A stretch of 64,000 nt of DNA, taken from NCBI RefSeq assembly GCF_005490785.1, contig NZ_CP027295.1, forward strand, positions 558,001 to 622,000, in the 5' to 3' direction. Below the pieces are notes generated by a model. It made no database searches. It was not told the DNA's origin and saw nothing but the letters and a program-made list of their open reading frames with translations. A program made the translations under genes and the position numbers. This DNA comes from Brachybacterium sp. SGAir0954. Its GTDB lineage: Bacteria > Actinomycetota > Actinomycetes > Actinomycetales > Dermabacteraceae. Shown one piece after another: positions 2,367 through 11,247 of the stretch (positions within the stretch are counted from its first letter, which is position 1; each line of letters begins with the position of its first letter).

Positions 2367-3326
2367 TCAGGAGGCCTTGGGGGCGGGGCCGAGCTCGGCG
2401 AGGAGCTGCGACATCTTCGCGTAGGCGTTGTTGCGGTAGGCGACGAGCTCGGCGCTCGTGGCCTCGTCGTAGGTGCCGAGCAGGCCGGCGCCGTTCTTCA
2501 CGCCCTTGCGGTCCGCGGCGACGGCGTCCTTCAGCAGCTGCGGGGTCGCGAGCCGCTCGCCGAAGGCGTTCTCGAAGGTCTCGAAGCAGTTGGCGTAGAC
2601 GTCGAGGCCGGCCTGGTCGGCGATCGCGAAGGGGCCGAAGAAGCCCAGGCGGAAGCCGAAGGTCGTGCGGACGATCGTGTCGACGTCCTCCTTCGTGGCG
2701 ACGCCCTCCTCGACGATCGACATGGCCTCCTTGAGCAGCACGTACTGCAGGCGGTTGAGGACCATGCCGGGGGTGTCCGCGACCTGTGCGCCCTGGTTGC
2801 CGGAGCGCTCGAGCAGCGCCTTGACGGCCGCGACGGTCTCCGGCGTGGTGGCCTCGCCGGCGACGAGCTCGACGCCCGGGATGAAGGGAGCCGGGTTGGA
2901 GAAGTGCACGGTGAGGAAGCGCTCGGGGTGCTTCACGGCGCTCTCGAGCTCCTTCACCGGGATGGTGGAGGTGTTGGTGCCGATGATCGTGTCGGGGCGG
3001 GCGTGCTCGGAGATGAGGCCGAGCACCTGGCGCTTGACGTCGAGCCGCTCGAAGACGGCCTCCTCGACGAGGTCGACGTCCGCGACGGCCTCCTCGATGG
3101 TCCTGCCCGCGGAGATGTTCTTCTCGACGAGGTCTGCGCTGCCGGGGGCGAAGAGCCCCTGGGCCTCGAACTCACGGGCCTCGTTGCGGAGACGCTCGAG
3201 GGAGGCGTTCGCGGTCTCGACGCTGACGTCGGCGAGGGTCACGTCGAGGCCGGCGATCGCGAGGACCTGGGCGATGCCGCCGCCCATGTAGCCGGCGCCG
3301 ACGATCGTCACGGTGGAGATGGTCAT
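2367..3326 (-). CDS. 3-hydroxyacyl-CoA dehydrogenase-family NAD-dependent oxidoreductase
   Basis: The protein has 319 residues. The N-terminal Rossmann fold begins TVTIVGAGYMGGGIAQVLA (GxGxxG dinucleotide site, about residues 8-14) and contains the NTSTIPVKEL segment. The C-terminal helical domain has the family motif GMVLNRLQ. It is close to 3-hydroxybutyryl-CoA dehydrogenases, but the same fold also serves L-gulonate 3-dehydrogenase and other polyol-acid dehydrogenases. Its place beside sugar enzymes and a sugar-acid carrier makes a non-CoA sugar-acid substrate more likely. The ATG has AAGGAG about nine bases upstream. An operator-like TCCTATGGGA lies 78 bp upstream, so it probably has its own promoter, shared with the MFS gene downstream. 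Confidence 0.8.
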   Translation of the reverse strand: MTISTVTIVGAGYMGGGIAQVLAIAGLDVTLADVSVETANASLERLRNEAREFEAQGLFAPGSADLVEKNISAGRTIEEAVADVDLVEEAVFERLDVKRQVLGLISEHARPDTIIGTNTSTIPVKELESAVKHPERFLTVHFSNPAPFIPGVELVAGEATTPETVAAVKALLERSGNQGAQVADTPGMVLNRLQYVLLKEAMSIVEEGVATKEDVDTIVRTTFGFRLGFFGPFAIADQAGLDVYANCFETFENAFGERLATPQLLKDAVAADRKGVKNGAGLLGTYDEATSAELVAYRNNAYAKMSQLLAELGPAPKAS

Positions 3327-3403
3327 GCTGGGGGACTCCTTCGTCTGTGCTGGGCCGCGGGCCCGGGTCGTGCCCGGTGTCTCTCGCCGCGGCGACAGCA
3401 GTG

Positions 3404-3417
3404 ATCCTATGGGATAT
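3404..3417. promoter_or_regulatory. GntR-type operator copy 1
   Basis: ATCCTATGGGATAT is an inverted repeat with half-sites TCC/GGA around TATG. It matches three other copies at 5206-5215, 5354-5363 and 9957-9966 (consensus TCCYATRGGA). It lies in the gap between the SDR gene and the dehydrogenase-like gene, where a promoter for the latter and the MFS gene would be. Confidence 0.7.
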
Positions 3418-3438
3418 CTGGTGAGTGTGGGGGGCCGG

Positions 3439-4212
3439 TCAGACCATGTGCTTGCCGCCGTCGACGAAGACCGAGTCCCCGTTGACGAAGCTCGAGTCCT
3501 CGCTGGTCAGGAACTTGATGAGGCCCGCAACCTCCTGGGGCTGGCCGACGCGCTGCAGCGGGATGTCGGCGGACATCCCGGCCTTGCGCTCGTCGGTGAG
3601 GGTGCCGCCCATGATGTCGGTGTCGATCGGGCCCGGGACGATCGCGTTGCAGGTGATCCCGTGCTTGCCGAGCTCACGGGCGCCGCCGCGGGTCAGGCCC
3701 AGCACGGCGGCCTTCGCCGCCGCGTAGCCGATCTTGGAGAAGGTGCCGCCGCCGTCGTAGGCGGTGATCGAGGCGGTGTTGACGATGCGGCCGCCGTGAC
3801 CGCCCTCGATCATGCGGGTCGCCGCGGCCTGCATCATGAACAGGGTGCCCTTGGCGTTGACGTTCATGACGCGGTCCCAGGTCTCCCCGTCGAGCTCGAA
3901 GATCGAGTGCGGGCTGGGGATGCCGGCGAGGTTCACCTCGGCGATGACGGGCGGGAGCTCCCGGTCGATCACCGCGAAGGCGGCCTCCACGGAGTCCTTG
4001 TCGGAGATGTCGACGCCGACGCCGATCACCGTGCGGCCCGACTCGGCGGCGAGCTCCGCCGCGAACTCCTGCACGGCGGCCTCGTCGATGTCGAGGGCGG
4101 CGACGTCCCAGCCGGCGGCGGCCAGGGCGCGGGCGACGTGGCGGCCGATGCCGCGCGGGGCGCCCGCCCCGGTGACGACGGCGGTGCGCTTCTGGGGAAA
4201 CGTGCTGGTCAT
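3439..4212 (-). CDS. Short-chain dehydrogenase/reductase (SDR)
   Basis: The 257-residue protein has all classical SDR elements: the NAD(P) loop TGAGAPRGIG near the N-terminus, an acidic residue after beta-2 (ALDID, favouring NAD), NLAG in place of NNAG, Ser in NTASITAY, and the catalytic YAAAK. The C-terminus has the usual PGPIDTDI and FVDGG segments. The ATG at 4212 has GAAGGAG five bases upstream. It lies 38 bp downstream of the TIM-barrel gene and is probably co-transcribed with it. In tetritol and sugar-acid pathways SDRs oxidise a secondary hydroxyl to a ketone. That is the likely role here, with substrate unknown. Confidence 0.88.
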   Translation of the reverse strand: MTSTFPQKRTAVVTGAGAPRGIGRHVARALAAAGWDVAALDIDEAAVQEFAAELAAESGRTVIGVGVDISDKDSVEAAFAVIDRELPPVIAEVNLAGIPSPHSIFELDGETWDRVMNVNAKGTLFMMQAAATRMIEGGHGGRIVNTASITAYDGGGTFSKIGYAAAKAAVLGLTRGGARELGKHGITCNAIVPGPIDTDIMGGTLTDERKAGMSADIPLQRVGQPQEVAGLIKFLTSEDSSFVNGDSVFVDGGKHMV

Positions 4213-4250
4213 TGCTGCTCCTTCGCAGGGTGATGACGAGGGGATCGGGG

Positions 4251-5171
4251 TCAGGCGAGGGCCGAGGTGAGCACCTGGCGCACGTACTGCACGTTCTCGG
4301 CGATGACGCCGAGCGAGTCCGAGCCGTAGTGCTCGCAGCAGAACGGGCCGGTGTAGCCGAGCTCGACGGCGCGGCGGATCACCTGGCGGTAGTTGATGTA
4401 GCCGTACTTGAGCGGGGTCGGTGCGGTCGCGTAGGCGCCGGTCGCCGGGTCGAAGTCCCGCGAGTAGTTCTTGATGTGCCAGAAGTTCGCGTGCGGCAGC
4501 ACCTTCTCGAACATGTCCTGCCAGGGCTCGACCTCGCGGTGCAGGCGCACGATGTTGCCGATGTCCGGGTTCAGGCCCACGTTCGCGTGGTCGACGTCGC
4601 CCAGGAAGGAGACGGCGTCGTCGGCCGTGCCGACGTAGGTGTCCTCGTACATCTCGAGGCTGATCTGCACGCCGCTGGCCTGGCCGAGGTCGCCGAGCTC
4701 GCGGATCCGCTCGATCGCGAGGTCGCGCAGGGCCGGGTCGTCGTGGTGGCCGTCCTCGAGCCAGAACCACACCGAGTCGTTCTGCGCCGGGGTCGTGGCC
4801 TGCATGAAGCCGGTGTTCACGACCGTCACACCGAAGCTCGGGGCGAGCTCGACGAAGCGGCGGGCGTCGGCGAGGTTCTGCTCGCCGTTCTCGACGTCCA
4901 CGACGGAGCTGCGGGTCATGGAGATCGAGGAGAGGGACAGACCCTCGCCGTCGAGCACGCGACGGAACTCCTCGAGGCGCTCGTCGGAGAGCTTCGCGAG
5001 CGGCAGCCAGGCGTCGGTGGGGTCGATCTGGTCGACGCCCAGCTCCTTGACCTGTCGGAGCTGCGAGGCCCAGACCGAGGACGAGGCCTCCAGGGTGGGA
5101 GTGCCGTCCGGGGTGGTGCTGCCGAAGGACAGCATGTTGGCGCCGATCGGCCAGTTCTCAGCGGTGAGCAT
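4251..5171 (-). CDS. Xylose-isomerase-like TIM-barrel enzyme (sugar or sugar-acid isomerase, epimerase or decarboxylase)
   Basis: The 306-residue protein belongs to the AP endonuclease 2/xylose-isomerase-like superfamily. Likely divalent-metal ligands are Glu in SLEMYED, Asp in LNPDIGN, His in FWHIKN and Glu in FCCEHYG, in the expected barrel order. The family includes erythrulose/tagatose epimerases, hydroxypyruvate isomerases and, as I recall, the 3-oxo-isoapionate decarboxylase that yields L-erythrulose. Because the divergent operon looks suited to consume erythrulose, a role producing or interconverting that ketose is attractive but unproven. It is the first gene of the left arm. The ATG has GAGGAAGG upstream, and an operator copy lies 35 bp upstream. 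Confidence 0.75.
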   Translation of the reverse strand: MLTAENWPIGANMLSFGSTTPDGTPTLEASSSVWASQLRQVKELGVDQIDPTDAWLPLAKLSDERLEEFRRVLDGEGLSLSSISMTRSSVVDVENGEQNLADARRFVELAPSFGVTVVNTGFMQATTPAQNDSVWFWLEDGHHDDPALRDLAIERIRELGDLGQASGVQISLEMYEDTYVGTADDAVSFLGDVDHANVGLNPDIGNIVRLHREVEPWQDMFEKVLPHANFWHIKNYSRDFDPATGAYATAPTPLKYGYINYRQVIRRAVELGYTGPFCCEHYGSDSLGVIAENVQYVRQVLTSALA

Positions 5172-5205
5172 CAGGTGCCTTCCTCGTTGACGTGGTCGTC
5201 GGGAA

Positions 5206-5215
5206 TCCTATAGGA
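5206..5215. promoter_or_regulatory. GntR-type operator copy 2 (left-arm promoter)
   Basis: TCCTATAGGA is a perfect 10-bp palindrome 35 bp upstream of the TIM-barrel gene. It lies in the 294-bp divergent intergenic region 5172-5465, which holds no gene. The placement suits a repressor acting on the leftward promoter. Confidence 0.75.
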
Positions 5216-5353
5216 AGATTCGCGAGGTGGCGACCCGCGGCTCTCGTCGACCCCGCCGAGGCCGCTCGAACCTCTCCTGCCGCGCCCACCCTGCGGCAGC
5301 ATCCGAGCAGGTAGGAGCAGAACTTTCCCGCCGTCTCGCCGCGCGCCGCATGT

Positions 5354-5363
5354 TCCTATAGGA
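5354..5363. promoter_or_regulatory. GntR-type operator copy 3 (right-arm promoter)
   Basis: A second perfect TCCTATAGGA lies in the same divergent region, 103 bp upstream of the kinase gene and 148 bp from copy 2. The pair suggests independent control of both divergent promoters by one regulator, or looping between the sites. Confidence 0.75.
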
Positions 5364-5465
5364 TCGTCTCCGTCGACGGGTCGTCCCCACGCCCCGAGCG
5401 GTCGACGACGACCCCGCCCCGTCCACCGCGCCGCACCGCCGCCGGCGCCCGCCCAGGAGTTCCCG

Positions 5466-7169
5466 ATGACGAAGCTCTACAACGACCCCGCCCAGTTCGC
5501 CGCCCAGGCGGTCCGGGGTCTCACCCTGTCCCACCCCGAGCACGTCGCCGAGGTCCACGGCGGCGTCGTGCGCCCCACGCTGACCCCGAAGGGCCAGCCC
5601 GCCCTCGTGATCGGCGGCGGCTCCGGCCACTACCCCGCCTTCGCCGGCTGGGTGGGCCCCGGCATGGGGCACGGCGCCCCGTGCGGCAACGTCTTCGCCT
5701 CGCCGTCGGCCTCGCAGGTGTACTCCGTCGCCCGCAACGCCGAGAACGGCGGCGGCGTGATCCTCGGCTTCGGCAACTACGCCGGGGACGTGCTGCACTT
5801 CGGCCTCGCCGCCGAGAAGCTCCGGGCCGAGGGCGTGGACGTGCGCATCGTCAAGGTCAGCGACGACATCGTCTCCAACACCCCTGACCAGCACCGCGAC
5901 CGCCGCGGCATCGCCGGCGACCTGCCCGTCTTCAAGATCGCGGGCGCCGCGATCGAGGCCGGCGCGGACCTCGACGAGGCCGAGCGGATCGCCTGGAAGG
6001 CCAACGACGCCACCCGCTCCTTCGGCGTCGCCTTCGACGGCTGCACCCTCCCCGGCGCGGACGACGCCCTCTTCCACGTGCCGGCCGGCCAGATGGGCGT
6101 GGGCCTCGGCATCCACGGCGAGCCCGGTGTGCGCGACGAGCCCGTCGGCTCCGCCGACGAGATCGCGACCCTGCTCGTCGAGGGCCTGCTCGCCGAGCGG
6201 CCCGAGGGATCCTCCGGTCGCGCCGCCGTGATCCTCAACGGCCTCGGCACCGTGAAGTACGAGGAGCTCTTCGTGGTCTATGCGAAGGTCGCCGAGCTGC
6301 TCGAGACCGCCGGCATCACCCCGGTGCGCCCCGAGGTCGGCGAGTTCATCACGAGCCTCGACATGGCCGGTCTCTCCCTCACCCTCGTCTTCCTCGACGA
6401 GGAGCTCGAGCAGCACTGGCTCGCGCCCGTCGACACCCCCGCCTACCGCCGCGGCGCCGTCGCACCCGTCGAGCGCGAGCAGCGCGAGAGCTACTGGACC
6501 CCCGGCGCGGACCCGGTCCCCGCCGCGAGCGACGACTCCCGCGCGACCGCCGCGAAGGTCGCGGACGTCCTGGACCTGTTCCAGGCCGTCTGCGCCCGCG
6601 AGGAGGCCGAGCTGGGCCGCATCGACCAGATCGCCGGTGACGGCGACCACGGCCAGGGCATGGCCTACGGCTCCACGGGCGCCGCGAAGGCCGCCCGCGC
6701 CGCGCTCGACGAGGGCGCCGGCGCGCGCACCCTGCTCGTCCGGGCCGGTGAGGCGTGGTCCGAGTCCGCCGGCGGCACCTCCGGCGCGCTCTGGGGCGCG
6801 GCGCTCACCGCCGCGGCGGGCGTCTGCTCCGACGACGAGGGCGCCACCCCGCGCACCGTCGTCGACGCGCTCGACTCCGGCATCGACGCGGTGCTGCGCC
6901 TCGGCGGCGCCCAGGTGGGCGACAAGACCATGGTCGACGCCGCCGTCCCCTTCCGTGCCACCCTGGAGAAGGCGTTCACCGGGGAGAACCCGGCCGCCGC
7001 GATCCTCGAGGCCGCGGGCGCCGCCCGCGAGGCGGCCGCCGCGACCGCGGAGATCACCGCCCGCCTCGGCCGCTCCCGCGTGCTGGGCGAGCGCTCGCTC
7101 GGCACCCCCGACCCGGGCGCGATCTCGTTCTCGATCCTCATGACCGAGCTCGGCGAGCACCTGTCCTGA
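5466..7169 (+). CDS. DhaKL-type (ATP-dependent DAK) kinase, probably an erythrulose kinase
   Basis: This is a 567-residue single-chain dihydroxyacetone kinase. The DhaK half (about residues 1-335) contains GGGSGHYPAFAGWVGPGM and the substrate-binding His in GLGIHGEPG, which forms a hemiaminal with ketoses in this family. After a linker, the DhaL half (from about residue 360) has the Mg-ATP site GDGDHGQGM and SAGGTSGALWG. In Mycobacterium smegmatis, fused DAK homologues encoded with RpiB and TIM homologues phosphorylate D- or L-erythrulose (DerK/LerK). The same three-gene order here makes a tetrulose kinase more likely than a dihydroxyacetone kinase. The start has AGGAG seven bases upstream. 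Confidence 0.85.
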   Translation: MTKLYNDPAQFAAQAVRGLTLSHPEHVAEVHGGVVRPTLTPKGQPALVIGGGSGHYPAFAGWVGPGMGHGAPCGNVFASPSASQVYSVARNAENGGGVILGFGNYAGDVLHFGLAAEKLRAEGVDVRIVKVSDDIVSNTPDQHRDRRGIAGDLPVFKIAGAAIEAGADLDEAERIAWKANDATRSFGVAFDGCTLPGADDALFHVPAGQMGVGLGIHGEPGVRDEPVGSADEIATLLVEGLLAERPEGSSGRAAVILNGLGTVKYEELFVVYAKVAELLETAGITPVRPEVGEFITSLDMAGLSLTLVFLDEELEQHWLAPVDTPAYRRGAVAPVEREQRESYWTPGADPVPAASDDSRATAAKVADVLDLFQAVCAREEAELGRIDQIAGDGDHGQGMAYGSTGAAKAARAALDEGAGARTLLVRAGEAWSESAGGTSGALWGAALTAAAGVCSDDEGATPRTVVDALDSGIDAVLRLGGAQVGDKTMVDAAVPFRATLEKAFTGENPAAAILEAAGAAREAAAATAEITARLGRSRVLGERSLGTPDPGAISFSILMTELGEHLS

Positions 7170-7206
7170 CGTCCTGACCAGCACCACCACCCCTGAGGAG
7201 ATCACC

Positions 7207-7677
7207 ATGGCCCTGCGCATCGTCACCGGATCCGACAACGCCGGCTACGGCCACAAGTCCGCCCTGAAGGAGCTGCTCGAGAACGACCCGCGCGTCGAGT
7301 CCGTGACCGACGTCGGCGTCGGCGGGCGCGAGGACGGCGAGCTGTACCCGAACGTCGCCGTCGCCGCGGCGGAGAAGGTCGCCGCCGGCGAGGCGGACCG
7401 CGCCCTGCTCATCTGCGGGACCGGCCTGGGTGTCGCGATCGCCGCGAACAAGGTGAGCGGCATCCGCGCCGTCACCGCCCACGACCTGTACTCCGTGCAG
7501 CGCTCCGTCCTCTCGAACAACGCGCAGATCCTCTGCATGGGCGAGCGCGTCATCGGCCTCGAGCTCGCCAAGGAGCTCGTGAAGGTGTGGCTCGACCTCG
7601 AGTTCGACCCCACCTCCTCCTCCGCCGAGAAGGTCGACGCGATCTGCGCCTACGACGGCTCCCTCGAGCAGGCCTGA
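7207..7677 (+). CDS. rpiB: RpiB/LacAB-family isomerase, probably D-erythrulose-4-phosphate isomerase
   Basis: The 156-residue protein is a full-length RpiB-type sugar-phosphate isomerase. It has the N-terminal GSDNAGYGHK segment (SDxAG), the catalytic Cys in LLICGTGLG, and the NKVSGIRA and SNNAQILCMG motifs. RpiB enzymes interconvert aldose and ketose phosphates. Beside a tetrulose kinase and an EryH-like TIM homologue, the expected reaction is D-erythrulose 4-phosphate to D-erythrose 4-phosphate (DerI/EryI type) and not ribose 5-phosphate isomerisation. It lies 37 bp after the kinase with a GAGGAG ribosome site, and is clearly co-transcribed. Confidence 0.85.
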   Translation: MALRIVTGSDNAGYGHKSALKELLENDPRVESVTDVGVGGREDGELYPNVAVAAAEKVAAGEADRALLICGTGLGVAIAANKVSGIRAVTAHDLYSVQRSVLSNNAQILCMGERVIGLELAKELVKVWLDLEFDPTSSSAEKVDAICAYDGSLEQA

Positions 7678-7682
7678 TCCCC

Positions 7683-8432
7683 ATGAGCACGCTGTGGGTG
7701 GGCACCAGCTGGAAGATGACGAAGACCCTCACCGAGGCGCGGGCCTGGGCGGAGGGGCTGCGCGAGCACCTCGACACCGTCCCGGACGGCGTGCAGCCCT
7801 TCGTCATCCCCTCCTTCACCGCCACCACCACGGTGCGGGAGATCCTCGGCGAGGACTCCCCCGTGCTGCTCGGCGTGCAGAACGCGCACTGGGAGGACAC
7901 CGGCGCCTGGACCGGCGAGGTCTCCGTCCCGCAGGCGAAGGACGCCGGCGCGCAGATCGTCGAGATCGGCCACTCCGAGCGCCGCGAGCACTTCGGGGAG
8001 ACCGTGGAGACCACACGGCTCAAGGTCGCCGCGGCCCTGCGCCACGGCCTCACCCCGCTGCTGTGCATCGGGGAGAGCGCGGGGGTGAAGGAGGCCGGCG
8101 GCTCGAGCGCGTTCATCCTCGAGCAGGCCGCGGGCGCCCTCGAGGGCCTCTCCGAGGAGGAGCTCGCGCGCGTGGTCATCGCCTACGAGCCGATCTGGGC
8201 GATCGGCGAGAAGGGCCGACCCGCCACCGTCGAGGAGCTCGTCGAGCCCTTCGCCGCCCTCGGCGCGGAGTACACCCGCCGCGTCGCCGGGCTGCTCTAC
8301 GGCGGCTCCGTCAACCTCGGCAATGCCGCGGATCTGCTCGGCATCGACCACGTGACCGGCCTGTTCGTGGGCCGCACGGCATGGGAGCTCGAGGGCTACC
8401 TCGAGCTGCTCGCGATCGCCGGGCGGTCCTGA
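7683..8432 (+). CDS. Triosephosphate isomerase homologue of EryH/LerI type (L-erythrulose-1-phosphate isomerase)
   Basis: The 249-residue TIM barrel keeps the catalytic Lys (TSWKM), His (EIGHSERR) and Glu (AYEPIWAIG), and the phosphate loop LYGGSVN. The usual first-strand NWK is replaced by SWK, which I recall as typical of the EryH/LerI branch that acts on L-erythrulose 1-phosphate and not on glyceraldehyde phosphate. It starts five bases after the rpiB stop, so it is translationally close-coupled. With the kinase and RpiB it would complete L-erythrulose to L-erythrulose 1-phosphate to D-erythrulose 4-phosphate to D-erythrose 4-phosphate. A housekeeping tpiA is expected elsewhere in the genome. 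Confidence 0.8.
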   Translation: MSTLWVGTSWKMTKTLTEARAWAEGLREHLDTVPDGVQPFVIPSFTATTTVREILGEDSPVLLGVQNAHWEDTGAWTGEVSVPQAKDAGAQIVEIGHSERREHFGETVETTRLKVAAALRHGLTPLLCIGESAGVKEAGGSSAFILEQAAGALEGLSEEELARVVIAYEPIWAIGEKGRPATVEELVEPFAALGAEYTRRVAGLLYGGSVNLGNAADLLGIDHVTGLFVGRTAWELEGYLELLAIAGRS

Positions 8433-8488
8433 GAGCCCTCTCGGGGAGCGGTCGTATCCTTGTCCGCACGGCGAGGTCAGGGGGAACC

Positions 8489-9238
8489 ATGGCACAGCGG
8501 ACCGGCACGCTCCGGGTCCGGCCGCGGCGACGCGGCCGATGGCTCACGATCGGTGTGCCCGTCACCGCCGGGCTCGTGCTCGGCATCGGCAGCTTCCTCA
8601 CCCTCGGCGTCGCGAGCCTGATCGGCGGCGGCACCCTGCTCGCCCCGCTGCTCGCCGGCCTCGGCGTCGGCGTGCTCGTGGGCGGCGCCCTGGGCCTCGC
8701 CCTCCGCAACCGTCGCGCCGCCCCCGTGCGCCTGCAGGACTCGGGCCTCGCGATGCCCGAGGGCACGCTCCCCGCCCTCGAGGGGATCGTGCGCACCACC
8801 CGCCGTCGGCGACGTGACCTGCAGCGGGTGCGCCGGCACGTGCGCGACCGCACCGTGCGGCCCGTCCTGCGGCGCGCGGAGACGCTGCTGCTGCGGATCG
8901 ACGCGCTCGTCGCGAGCCCCGCGCTCCGGACCCGCCGCCCCTGGGACGACGACGTGCTCCTTCTCGAGGGGATGGCCGAGCGCTACGTCCCCGACCTTGT
9001 GCGCGCCGCGGAGGACAACGCCGGCTTCCTCACCGCCCCCGGCGACGGCCCGCGGCAGACGGCGCTCGCGAACCTCCGCAGCATCGACGCCCAGCTCGAC
9101 GCCCTCGCCATGAGGCTCGACGAGGTCGAGGGCCGGCTCGTCTCGGGCGTCACCCGGGAGCTCGACGTGCACGCCGAGTTCCTGCGCGTGCGCCTCGCCC
9201 AGGGCGAGCCGGTGCGGGTCAGTCCTCCGCTGCGCTGA
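8489..9238 (+). CDS. Membrane-anchored helical protein of unknown function
   Basis: The 249-residue protein has a short Arg-rich N-terminus, then two closely spaced hydrophobic helices (about residues 20-42 and 45-65, Gly/Leu-rich). A basic linker RRRRRDLQRVRRH and a long alpha-helical cytoplasmic part follow. I do not recognise a domain. The layout loosely resembles XpaC-like proteins that often accompany TelA, and a TelA gene lies 8 kb to the left, but that is weak. The ATG at 8489 has AGGGGG five to ten bases upstream. Its 3' end overlaps the convergent GntR gene by 20 bp. It is probably not part of the sugar pathway. Confidence 0.65.
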   Translation: MAQRTGTLRVRPRRRGRWLTIGVPVTAGLVLGIGSFLTLGVASLIGGGTLLAPLLAGLGVGVLVGGALGLALRNRRAAPVRLQDSGLAMPEGTLPALEGIVRTTRRRRRDLQRVRRHVRDRTVRPVLRRAETLLLRIDALVASPALRTRRPWDDDVLLLEGMAERYVPDLVRAAEDNAGFLTAPGDGPRQTALANLRSIDAQLDALAMRLDEVEGRLVSGVTRELDVHAEFLRVRLAQGEPVRVSPPLR

Positions 9239-9899
9239 GCGAGCGGGCGAGCACGGCGTCGAGGTGCGCGGCGAGGGCCTGCAGCGCCCCGTCATGATGA
9301 TGCTGGCGCACCTTCTCCAGCACGATCCCGTGCTCCTCGTGGGCCACGCGGCCGTCGAAGGTCTCGGGCCCGCCGGACCAGGTCTGCCGCATGCGGTGGC
9401 TGTAGGTGCTGAGGTTCTCGACCATGGTGCGCAGGTAGCGGTTGTCCGCGTGGGCGAAGAACACCTGGTGGAAGGCCCAGTCCGCCCGGAAGTGCTCGTT
9501 GAGCAGCTCGTAGTCCTCGGCGCCCGCGGCGTCGATCTGGGCGAGCACCTCGGCGTGGCGGGCGTGCGCGGCCTCGAGATCGGCGACGAGCGCGTCCCAC
9601 TGGGTGAAGGCGCGACCCAGGGCCGCGGACTCAACGACCTTGCGGGCGTCGAGCAGCTCGGTCATGTGCTCGGCGTCCAGCGGCGGGGCGACCACGTAGC
9701 CGCGCAGCGCCACGTACTCCACGAGGCCGGAGCGCTCGAGGGCCACCATCGCCTCGCGCACCGGGGTGGGTGAGACCTCAAGGTCGCGGGCGAGGCCGTC
9801 GATGCTGAGGCGGGAGCCGGGGGCCCAGCGGTTCTCGAGGAGGCGCTGGAGGATGAGCTCCTCGACCTCGTCGCGCAGGACCTGTCGTCGGATGGCCAA
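9219..9899 (-). CDS. GntR-family regulator, FadR/FCD subfamily
   Basis: The 226-residue protein has an N-terminal winged helix (about residues 1-70; RLSIDGLARDLEVSPTPVRE, recognition helix VSPTPVREAMVALE) and a C-terminal all-helical FCD ligand domain. Acidic and His residues for a metal-bound carboxylate are visible (D in AEDYELLNEHFRAD; H in FHQVFFAHADN). I place the start at the TTG at 9899, because it has AAGGAG exactly seven bases upstream and leaves the operator at 9957-9966 in the promoter; the longer reading frame would run through that operator. It is divergent from the MFS gene. Organic acids are the usual ligands of this subfamily. It is the best candidate for the four TCCYATRGGA sites. 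Confidence 0.85.
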   Translation of the reverse strand: MAIRRQVLRDEVEELILQRLLENRWAPGSRLSIDGLARDLEVSPTPVREAMVALERSGLVEYVALRGYVVAPPLDAEHMTELLDARKVVESAALGRAFTQWDALVADLEAAHARHAEVLAQIDAAGAEDYELLNEHFRADWAFHQVFFAHADNRYLRTMVENLSTYSHRMRQTWSGGPETFDGRVAHEEHGIVLEKVRQHHHDGALQALAAHLDAVLARSLSAAED

Positions 9900-9956
9900 G
9901 GGGCGGCTCCTTCGGGCGGGGCGGCGGCTCCCGGTGTCCGGACTGCCGATCGGGCT

Positions 9957-9966
9957 TCCCATAGGA
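9957..9966. promoter_or_regulatory. GntR-type operator copy 4 (regulator/MFS divergent promoter)
   Basis: TCCCATAGGA, one mismatch from a perfect palindrome, lies 58 bp upstream of the regulator start and 34 bp upstream of the divergent MFS reading frame. The position suggests autoregulation and control of the exporter-like MFS gene. Confidence 0.7.
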
Positions 9967-9999
9967 TAACGGGGCCCGCGCCGAGCTGAGGAGCCTCCC

Positions 10000-11247
10000 A
10001 CGACCACCACCGCGCCCCGCCGCTTCGGCGCCCTCCGCGACCCCCACTCGCGGCCCTACCTGCTCACCGCCGGCCTCTCGATGATGGCGGACAACATCGA
10101 GCACGTCATCACCTACTGGTTCCTCTGGCAGGCCTTCCACTCCCCCGCGCTCGTGGGCTTCCAGGTGATCAGCCACTGGCTGCCGTTCCTGCTGTGCTCG
10201 GTGTGGTTCGGCGAGCTCGCCGAGCGGCACGACTGCCGTCGGATCATCCAGATCGCCCAGGGGCTGTTCGCCTTCGTCTCCGTGGCCTGGGGCGTCCTCT
10301 TCCTCACCGGCACGCTGACGATGTGGGAGGCGTGCATCCTGCTCGTGCTGCACGGCTGCGCGGGCGCCCTCTGGGGCCCGGCGGAGCAGCTCATGCTCCA
10401 CGACTTCGCCGAGCCGCGGGAGCTGCCCGGTGCGGTGCGGCTGAACGCGACCTTCAAGAGCCTCGGCGTGCTCGCCGGGCCGATCGTCGGCTCCGCGCTG
10501 CTGCTCGCCCTGGGCCCGGCGATCGGGATCCTCGTGAACGTCCTGTTCTACCTGCCGATGACCCTGCTCATGCTGCGCACCCCCTACACCGGGCACACGC
10601 GCGACGGCGTGGTCCGACGTGAGCGGCTCGGCCCGCTGCGCTCCCTCGCCGTGCTGCGCACCGTCGCCGGGGACCGCGTGCTCGTCGCGATGATCGCGCT
10701 GGGCGGGCTCATCGCGGTGGGCGTCGGCTCCTCCCTCCAGGTCGCCATGCCCTCCCTCGCCGACGCCCTCGGCGCCGGGGACGCGGGCGCCGCCTACGGC
10801 CTGCTCCTCTTCGCGAACGGCGTGGGCGGCGTGGTGGGCGGCGTGCTGCTCGAGGCGACGGGCGTGATCCGGCCCAGCACCCGCGCCGCCGTCGTCGCGA
10901 CCTTCCTCTTCGGGGTGACCACGATCGTGGTGGCGACCTCGCCGAGCTACCTCGTCACCGTGCTCGCGCTCGTCATCGGCGGCGTCGCGAACATGGCCTC
11001 GATGACGATCGGCCAGGCCGTCGTGCAGCTGCGCGCGCCGGTCGACCAGCGCGGCCGCGTGATCGGCGTCTACAGCATGCTCACCACGGGTCTGCGCACC
11101 GGCAACGGGATCACCCTCGCGGTGCTCGGCTCCCTGATCGGCGTGACCGGGACCGTGCTCGTGGGCGGCGGCGTGCTCGCCGTCGGGGCGGTCGTCATCG
11201 CGGCGCTCATCGCGCTGGCGACCGCCCGACGGCGCGCGGCGGGCTAG
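10000..11247 (+). CDS. MFS transporter with a possible ACG start
   Basis: This is a 415-residue 12-helix MFS protein of the drug/siderophore exporter type; the early helix reads MMADNIEHVITYWFLWQAFH. The first ATG (10081) would cut about 27 residues that look like a normal MFS N-terminus (RRFGALRDP, then the first helix). Between the in-frame stop at 9967 and 10081 there is no ATG, GTG or TTG. An ACG at 10000 sits six bases after GAGGAG (9988-9993), a perfect ribosome-site distance. Either ACG initiates, a base differs from the true sequence, or a shortened form is made. The gene is divergent from the GntR gene with an operator between them, so it may export a pathway intermediate or import a substrate. 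Confidence 0.7.
   Translation, partial: TTTTAPRRFGALRDPHSRPYLLTAGLSMMADNIEHVITYWFLWQAFHSPALVGFQVISHWLPFLLCSVWFGELAERHDCRRIIQIAQGLFAFVSVAWGVLFLTGTLTMWEACILLVLHGCAGALWGPAEQLMLHDFAEPRELPGAVRLNATFKSLGVLAGPIVGSALLLALGPAIGILVNVLFYLPMTLLMLRTPYTGHTRDGVVRRERLGPLRSLAVLRTVAGDRVLVAMIALGGLIAVGVGSSLQVAMPSLADALGAGDAGAAYGLLLFANGVGGVVGGVLLEATGVIRPSTRAAVVATFLFGVTTIVVATSPSYLVTVLALVIGGVANMASMTIGQAVVQLRAPVDQRGRVIGVYSMLTTGLRTGNGITLAVLGSLIGVTGTVLVGGGVLAVGAVVIAALIALATARRRAAG

Follow-up and report, generated by a model that had tools for sequence, protein, structure and literature searches.

A Predicted GntR/FCD Regulon of Brachybacterium for the Catabolism of C5 Sugar Acids via L-Erythrulose

The island and its operators

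The window analyzed here, a stretch of 64,000 nucleotides from the genome of Brachybacterium sp. SGAir0954 (contig NZ_CP027295.1, positions 558,001 to 622,000), holds an island of sugar-catabolic genes in which a ten-base palindrome, the predicted operator, stands ahead of each of four units: HCDH-ACS, AP2-SDR, DAK-RpiB-TIM, and GntR. The left arm lies on the reverse strand. It comprises HCDH (2367–3326), a protein of the 3-hydroxyacyl-coenzyme A (CoA) dehydrogenase fold (Pfam 3HCDH_N and 3HCDH) proposed to oxidize C3 of an acid; ACS (924–2321), a major facilitator superfamily (MFS) transporter of the anion:cation symporter type and candidate sugar-acid importer (Pfam MFS_1; 271 bits against the NCBIfam D-galactonate transporter, under the cut-off of 395); AP2 (4251–5171), by Pfam a xylose-isomerase-like barrel, proposed to be a 3-oxo-acid decarboxylase; and SDR (3439–4212), by Pfam a short-chain dehydrogenase. 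ACS is part of the island though it lies to the left of 2367, the starting point of an earlier, sequence-only reading of this DNA. The right arm, on the forward strand, comprises DAK (5466–7169), a fused DhaK-DhaL kinase (Dak1, Dak2) proposed to act on L-erythrulose; an RpiB paralog (7207–7677), the proposed D-erythrulose-4-phosphate isomerase; and a TIM paralog (7683–8432) of the clade that occupies the EryH position in erythritol loci, the proposed L-erythrulose-1-phosphate isomerase. The regulator gene GntR (9219–9899, reverse strand, 226 amino acids) encodes GntR and FCD domains by Pfam. In the Pfam and NCBIfam searches the TIM query was one residue, and the SDR query seven residues, too long.

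An exact search of the window for TCCYATRGGA finds the palindrome at 3405–3414 (TCCTATGGGA, 78 bp before HCDH), 5206–5215 (TCCTATAGGA, 34 bp before AP2), 5354–5363 (TCCTATAGGA again, 102 bp before DAK), and 9957–9966 (TCCCATAGGA, between GntR and a divergent transporter gene, 57 bp before GntR). The four sites that the sequence-only reading had placed ahead of different units, the GntR/FCD gene included, are thus borne out, the first of them having been given as 3404–3417. Shuffles of the window lead one to expect 0.10 sites, and none of 100 shuffles held four or more; tolerance of one mismatch adds a single place, 63196, against 2.62 expected by chance, so that such matches are commonplace. 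In the whole genome of 3,410,111 bases, scanned as that reading had proposed, the palindrome occurs at four places, all inside 6.6 kb of the island that includes the GntR/FCD gene, with no unrelated copies, and its backwards-read control occurs at none. Because about five genomic sites would be expected when the window shuffles are scaled, the total of four is not raised; what goes beyond chance is the clustering of all four in a single island, ahead of its units. The palindrome stands ahead of every unit and nowhere else in the genome; that it marks one regulon is close to certain, and the GntR gene of the island likely encodes the regulator that acts at it. The 57-bp gap presumes a TTG start codon at 9899, preceded by AAGGAG, where GntR orthologs have ATG or nearly so; the start of the listed open reading frame, 10010, would place the operator within the gene.

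The operators ahead of AP2, DAK, and GntR recur in relatives. Of the named Brachybacterium loci, 15 of 17 carry TCCTATAGGA; outside the genus 35 of 83 loci do, and there 43 of its 45 sites lie within 400 bp ahead of a regulon gene; the control AGGATATCCT is found in neither set. It stands within 320 bp ahead of AP2 in 14/15 Brachybacterium and 24/83 other cases, and within 320 bp ahead of DAK in 7/8 and 14/68, respectively; an exact or near copy precedes GntR in six relatives compared. Since the flanks of 68 sites hold A or T at −1 in 97% and at +10 in 95%, the operator can be extended to the 12-mer WTCCTATAGGAW. Of 393 genomes of the class, 26 contain the 12-mer and five its backwards control. 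The 12-mer is carried by 11 of the 21 genomes with AP2 (a match at E 1e-60) versus 15 of the 372 without (Fisher 2.5e-9, kinship not corrected), ten of these 15 belonging to one family of small genomes, and 16 of its 18 places in AP2 genomes are at AP2 or DAK. The sequence TTGAC lies 15–32 bp upstream of 18 of 43 AP2 operators, on the other side of none of them, and upstream of none of 24 DAK operators. Because of this spacing, the operator would sit approximately at the expected −10 box position in many AP2 promoters, an arrangement that suggests repression. On the control side TTGAC also accompanies operators at GntR (2/6), RpiB (3/4), and TIM (1/2), perhaps through the divergence of these genes from AP2.

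As a family-wide marker, the degenerate TCCYATRGGA was abandoned: it occurs in 40 of 47 genomes, with its backwards control about equally frequent in many. TCCTATAGGA alone separates, being carried by none of nine Brachybacterium genomes without AP2. The GntR recognition helix was dropped as the cause of missing motifs, since the helix-turn-helix is much the same whether or not a locus has the motif. In the gammaproteobacterium Carnimonas nigrificans (L106), AP2 is 81% identical to that of the window and is preceded by the operator, a likely transfer from actinobacteria. In two genomes (G009 and G023; L184:6231-8328 and L185:7537-8652), TCCTATAGGA lies close to a DHDPS-family gene and a ROK regulator, annotated by Pfam in the first locus and by similar layout in the second. 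Two further forward-strand genes belong to the neighborhood of the island. One (8489–9238) adjoins TIM, may be co-transcribed with it, has no Pfam match, and is conserved in several Brachybacterium loci; lying between TIM and GntR in this genus, it overlaps the GntR 3′ end by 20 bp. The other (10081–11247; Pfam MFS_1 and MFS_3), divergent from GntR and 114 bp behind the operator, encodes an MFS_3-type transporter whose membership in the pathway is uncertain.

A proposed route from acid to erythrose-4-phosphate

The right arm is probably best read as an L-erythrulose funnel. The genome holds two TIM, three RpiB, and three Dak1 genes, and the island TIM, 37% identical to the glycolytic TIM of the same genome, is distinct from that enzyme. 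A quick tree of 45 rows splits the TIMs found at AP2 loci into two clades, that of the window grouping with alphaproteobacterial erythritol-locus TIMs (support value 97) and the other with an Erwinia TIM beside ApnO; both are separate from four canonical TIMs, the genome's own glycolytic copy included (99). One of the four erythritol loci in this tree is annotated EryA-D, two others look alike, and one is barely annotated. Identity of the island RpiB is 96% with the RpiB of a second, tetritol-like cluster in the same genome, 42–44% with the RpiB proteins of erythritol loci, and 28% with the genome's third RpiB. DAK was likewise placed in a tree, and its His217 is kept in 76 of 76 sequences. 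The funnel from erythrulose to erythrose-4-phosphate that the sequence-only reading had seen here thus gains from the grouping of TIM and the kinship of RpiB. The corresponding enzymes of Mycolicibacterium smegmatis are, we take it, those named LerK-LerI-DerI. According to PMC5992420, which cites Barbier 2014, a dihydroxyacetone kinase and EryH and EryI homologs take L-erythrulose to erythrose-4-phosphate; PMC12780249 summarizes the Brucella-type and M. smegmatis tetritol pathways.

On the left arm, the presumed catalytic His, Glu, Ser, and Asn of HCDH are intact in 67 of 67 sequences, as are S143, P150, and G151. The HFFNPAPVMKLVE loop of 3mog, a CoA-linked 3-hydroxyacyl-CoA dehydrogenase, is absent from HCDH, which has HFSNPAPFIPGVE instead; 4om8, a pyridine carboxylate enzyme, has HWSNPPHIIPMIE. 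The HCDH loop is thus unlike that of the CoA enzyme and like that of 4om8, which counts in favor of the proposed entry half. Of 63 HCDH genes, 36 have an acid permease gene no more than 400 bp away in the same orientation. AP2 is an ortholog of PDB 5tnv, a magnesium-containing xylose-isomerase-like barrel of M. smegmatis (72% identity, template modeling [TM] score 0.97), the title of which states no function and which is not named in the literature searched; the nearest named relatives of AP2 among the matches listed are 83–86% identical and nearly all from Brachybacterium. E173, D203, and E280 are conserved in 103 of 103 AP2 sequences and H232 in 102; by analogy, these are presumably the metal residues. 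The Ser-Tyr-Lys triad of SDR is intact in 48 of 48.

Gene content was compared across 102 AP2 loci (L075-L176), of which seven under 11 kb (L099, L102, L103, L110, L161, L164, and L172) were dropped to leave 95; L055-L074, most of which overlap named loci, were kept out. DAK is present in 78 of the 95, RpiB in 66, HCDH in 64, TIM in 57, GntR in 56, SDR in 44, ACS in 33, GntP2 in 29, PdxA in 14, and ApnO in 10, and DAK-RpiB-TIM is complete in 49. A compact set occurs in Mycolicibacterium parafortuitum (L113), with TIM-RpiB-DAK, GntR, and AP2-HCDH-GntP. In two Brachybacterium genomes (G005 and G025), pairs of an MFS transporter and an SMP-30/gluconolactonase lie directly behind TCCTATAGGA (L187:4105-6562 and L189:7313-9676). 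In one of these genomes the pair is at a distance from AP2, in the other it lies some 5 kb from that gene; such lactonase pairs behind the operator would speak for aldonates.

PdxA may serve as a further entry enzyme. At distances of up to about 10 kb from AP2, 64 of the 95 loci hold HCDH only, 14 PdxA only, none both, and 17 neither (Fisher 1.3e-8). On the AP2 tree this exchange amounts to nine changes, and eight independent pairs can be drawn, none going the same way (median sign-test p 0.016, range 0.008–0.063). Plasmids of Sinorhizobium meliloti, Pararhizobium, and Shinella carry PdxA-TctCBA-AP2-DAK beside a GntR gene, and Paracoccus TOH carries AP2-DAK-PdxA-TctCBA with OtnK and OtnC, again beside a GntR gene; the proteobacterial AP2 proteins of these clusters are 45–48% identical to that of the window. 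The alphaproteobacterial plasmid clusters (L175, L176, L211, and L212), without HCDH, TIM, or RpiB nearby, are apparently a complete alternative entry. As strict alternatives, HCDH and PdxA are weakened genome-wide: three of six genomes with PdxA near AP2 (G024, apparently the L101 genome; G020; and the L114 genome) hold HCDH elsewhere, and G013, which is not among the 95 loci, has both within about 12 kb of AP2. HCDH was not found at E 1e-50 in the genomes of L145, L166, and L160, nor on plasmid pSymB. The two would be at most parallel entries.

On balance, we lean toward reading the island as one GntR/FCD regulon for the catabolism of a C5 sugar acid via L-erythrulose. Because an acid goes in, a C4 ketose phosphate comes out, and one NAD-dehydrogenase and one barrel stand between, a C5 acid minus CO2 would be the simplest balance. 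C3 of D-apionate is tertiary and cannot be oxidized there, which would leave a linear pentonate. We posit that the pentonate enters through an anion permease (ACS here but GntP in many relatives), that HCDH oxidizes its C3 hydroxyl with NAD, and that AP2, as a metal-dependent barrel, decarboxylates the resulting 3-oxo-pentonate to L-erythrulose and CO2. DAK would then phosphorylate L-erythrulose at C1, the TIM paralog would convert L-erythrulose-1-phosphate to D-erythrulose-4-phosphate, and the RpiB paralog would yield D-erythrose-4-phosphate. The GntR repressor would occupy WTCCTATAGGAW close to the promoter of its own gene and to those of the units, and a pathway metabolite would release it. 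If TIM marks L-erythrulose, the acid should have the L configuration at C4, as do L-arabinonate, L-ribonate, L-xylonate, and L-lyxonate. The breakdown of ascorbate is a possible source of C5 acids; PMC6225978 describes 2-oxo-L-threo-pentonate.

The entry half fits no pathway known to us, and we offer the entry route as a well-founded proposal from gene content and conservation. A literature search that was thin on subscription journals turned up no paper on it, judging by titles and the first lines of abstracts, nor is it described in the passages drawn on here. The suggestion of the sequence-only reading that the left arm could lead from a sugar acid to erythrulose stands to that extent, the fit of the gene content being its sole support; a linear pentonate fits better than the branched C5 acid (apionate) that it had given as an example, since the genome searched at E 1e-3 shows neither an ApnO-like nor an OiaC-like gene.

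Competing readings

Several observations weigh against the pathway as drawn. Within the stretches covered, 15 of the 95 AP2 loci hold no funnel gene, and the proteobacterial PdxA versions lack TIM and RpiB nearby. By its NCBIfam scores, RpiB clears the cut-off for ribose-5-phosphate isomerase and falls short of that for rhizobial DerI; TIM clears that for triose-phosphate isomerase. The exact 10-mer is missing from 48 of the 83 AP2 loci of other genera, the helix-turn-helix of GntR being alike even there, and the operator ahead of HCDH is weakly conserved, being kept at just one of 11 HCDH genes of relatives (L055-L074).

The function of the barrel is open to a different assignment, which we hold to be unlikely though far from negligible: AP2 could be a ketose 3-epimerase that interconverts D- and L-erythrulose, with the 3-oxo acid made by HCDH or, elsewhere, by PdxA giving off its CO2 either spontaneously or on the dehydrogenase. 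Next to 5tnv, the 50 fold matches listed are mostly ketose 3-epimerases (TM about 0.6–0.7), a point that also counts against decarboxylation; among the matches of the AP2 profile are tagatose and psicose epimerases as well as UlaE, which shares with AP2 the PDIGN and HVK motifs. We had considered the D-x-x-N and H-x-K motifs as proof of decarboxylation and dropped them, the aligned epimerase UlaE (3cqh) having PDIGN and HVK as well; an EryC-like racemase was rejected at a profile probability of only 4.5%. By themselves, the fold and the presumed metal residues do not decide between decarboxylase and epimerase. The AP2 profile, however, also matches the barrel beside ApnO, at 97% probability, and with an epimerase D-erythrulose could go directly through the kinase and RpiB, making TIM superfluous; both points count against the epimerase reading.

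Doubtful to a greater degree is a C4 substrate, threonate or erythronate, which HCDH would turn into 3-oxo-tetronate and AP2 into dihydroxyacetone, with a genuine dihydroxyacetone kinase in DAK and a triose-phosphate isomerase in TIM, as their NCBIfam names would have it. C4-acid genes do lie near AP2, a DUF1537 kinase in 12 and an L-threonate-dehydrogenase-like (LtnD-like) gene in 15 of the 95 loci, which tells against a C5 acid, and PdxA, OtnK, and OtnC adjoin AP2-DAK in Paracoccus. However, TIM belongs with the erythritol-locus TIMs, and RpiB, useless for C3 compounds, is near AP2 in two-thirds of the loci (66/95) and here has its close counterpart in the tetritol-like cluster.

That cluster bears in turn on an improbable third reading, a tetritol pathway in which SDR would be a threitol or erythritol dehydrogenase. 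The funnel enzymes are indeed shared with tetritol pathways (PMC12780249), but acid permeases adjoin HCDH, and SDR accompanies AP2 in fewer than half of the loci (44/95). The second DAK-RpiB cluster of the genome (G000:C1 378.6-385.3 kb; L208:8624-15326) contains DAK, RpiB, SDR, an MFS transporter, a zinc alcohol dehydrogenase, and a sugar-binding regulator, and the operator motif is not present in it; it has a fuller set of putative polyol dehydrogenases to feed the kinase than the single SDR of the island and is probably the one for tetritols. The sequence-only reading had held the left arm to differ from the known tetritol set, which agrees with what is found; by its genes the arm is neither that set nor the apionate set.

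Finally, the known D-apionate pathway can be set aside as highly improbable: it has the same kind of funnel, and in several Brachybacterium genomes ApnO-like and OiaC-like genes stand between copies of the operator, but ApnO is near AP2 in just 10 of the 95 loci and both genes went undetected in this genome at E 1e-3.

Significance and relation to known systems

Of the generalization from the island to a widespread route we are less confident than of the island itself, and we put it forward tentatively. It would be an undescribed route for linear C5 aldonates in which an HCDH-fold enzyme (or, in other bacteria, a member of the PdxA family accompanied by a tripartite transporter) oxidizes C3, a new PF01261 family that includes 5tnv carries out the decarboxylation, L-erythrulose passes to the pentose phosphate pathway, and, in many actinobacteria, the genes form one conserved WTCCTATAGGAW regulon. 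If this is true, a crystal structure without a stated function and an enzyme family with at least 564 confirmed relatives would acquire one, tetritols and apionate would be joined by a third way into the erythrulose branch, and erythrose-4-phosphate would be linked to pentonates that may derive from ascorbate or plant sugars. With the operator as a marker, the regulon is easy to locate in other actinobacteria.

Among known systems, D-apionate catabolism shares with the island a C5 acid, a PF01261 barrel, the same kind of funnel, and, in relatives, the same operator. We take 5t57 to be ApnO and the barrel beside it to be OiaC; reportedly, from the work of Carter in 2018, OiaC makes L-erythrulose in this pathway. 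Several Brachybacterium relatives carry, between operators of the same kind, an ApnO-like gene (matching 5t57 at 9e-57), an OiaC-like barrel, and a GntP permease, and in Erwinia E602 MFS, DAK, TIM, an OiaC-like barrel, and ApnO follow one another, RpiB lying close by. By its genes this module is separate from the island: in the genome studied here, neither the ApnO-like query from relative G004 nor an OiaC-type PF01261 barrel found a match at E 1e-3, and AP2, related to OiaC by profile only, is another subfamily. Another apiose cluster is credited with a D-apionate oxidoisomerase in PMC11747546; for the phosphorylated branches, PMC6302742 points to Carter 2018.

The GntR/FCD regulators of sugar-acid operons have in common with the island their two domains and short palindromic operators; TCCTATAGGA, for its part, appears in the literature searched solely in six papers that, by title and abstract, are unrelated. 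L-Gulonate 3-dehydrogenase/lambda-crystallin and the FHMPC dehydrogenase 4om8 have the fold of HCDH and non-CoA substrates, and 4om8 a related loop, but their substrates differ, and we know of no decarboxylase or erythrulose funnel alongside either. The nearest parallel to the right arm is the L-erythrulose/erythritol funnel of Brucella, Rhizobium, and M. smegmatis, in which a kinase, a TIM paralog, and an RpiB paralog (EryH and EryI in Brucella and Rhizobium) likewise share one operon; that funnel is fed by a polyol kinase and dehydrogenases, whereas the funnel of the island would be fed by an acid permease, HCDH, and AP2.

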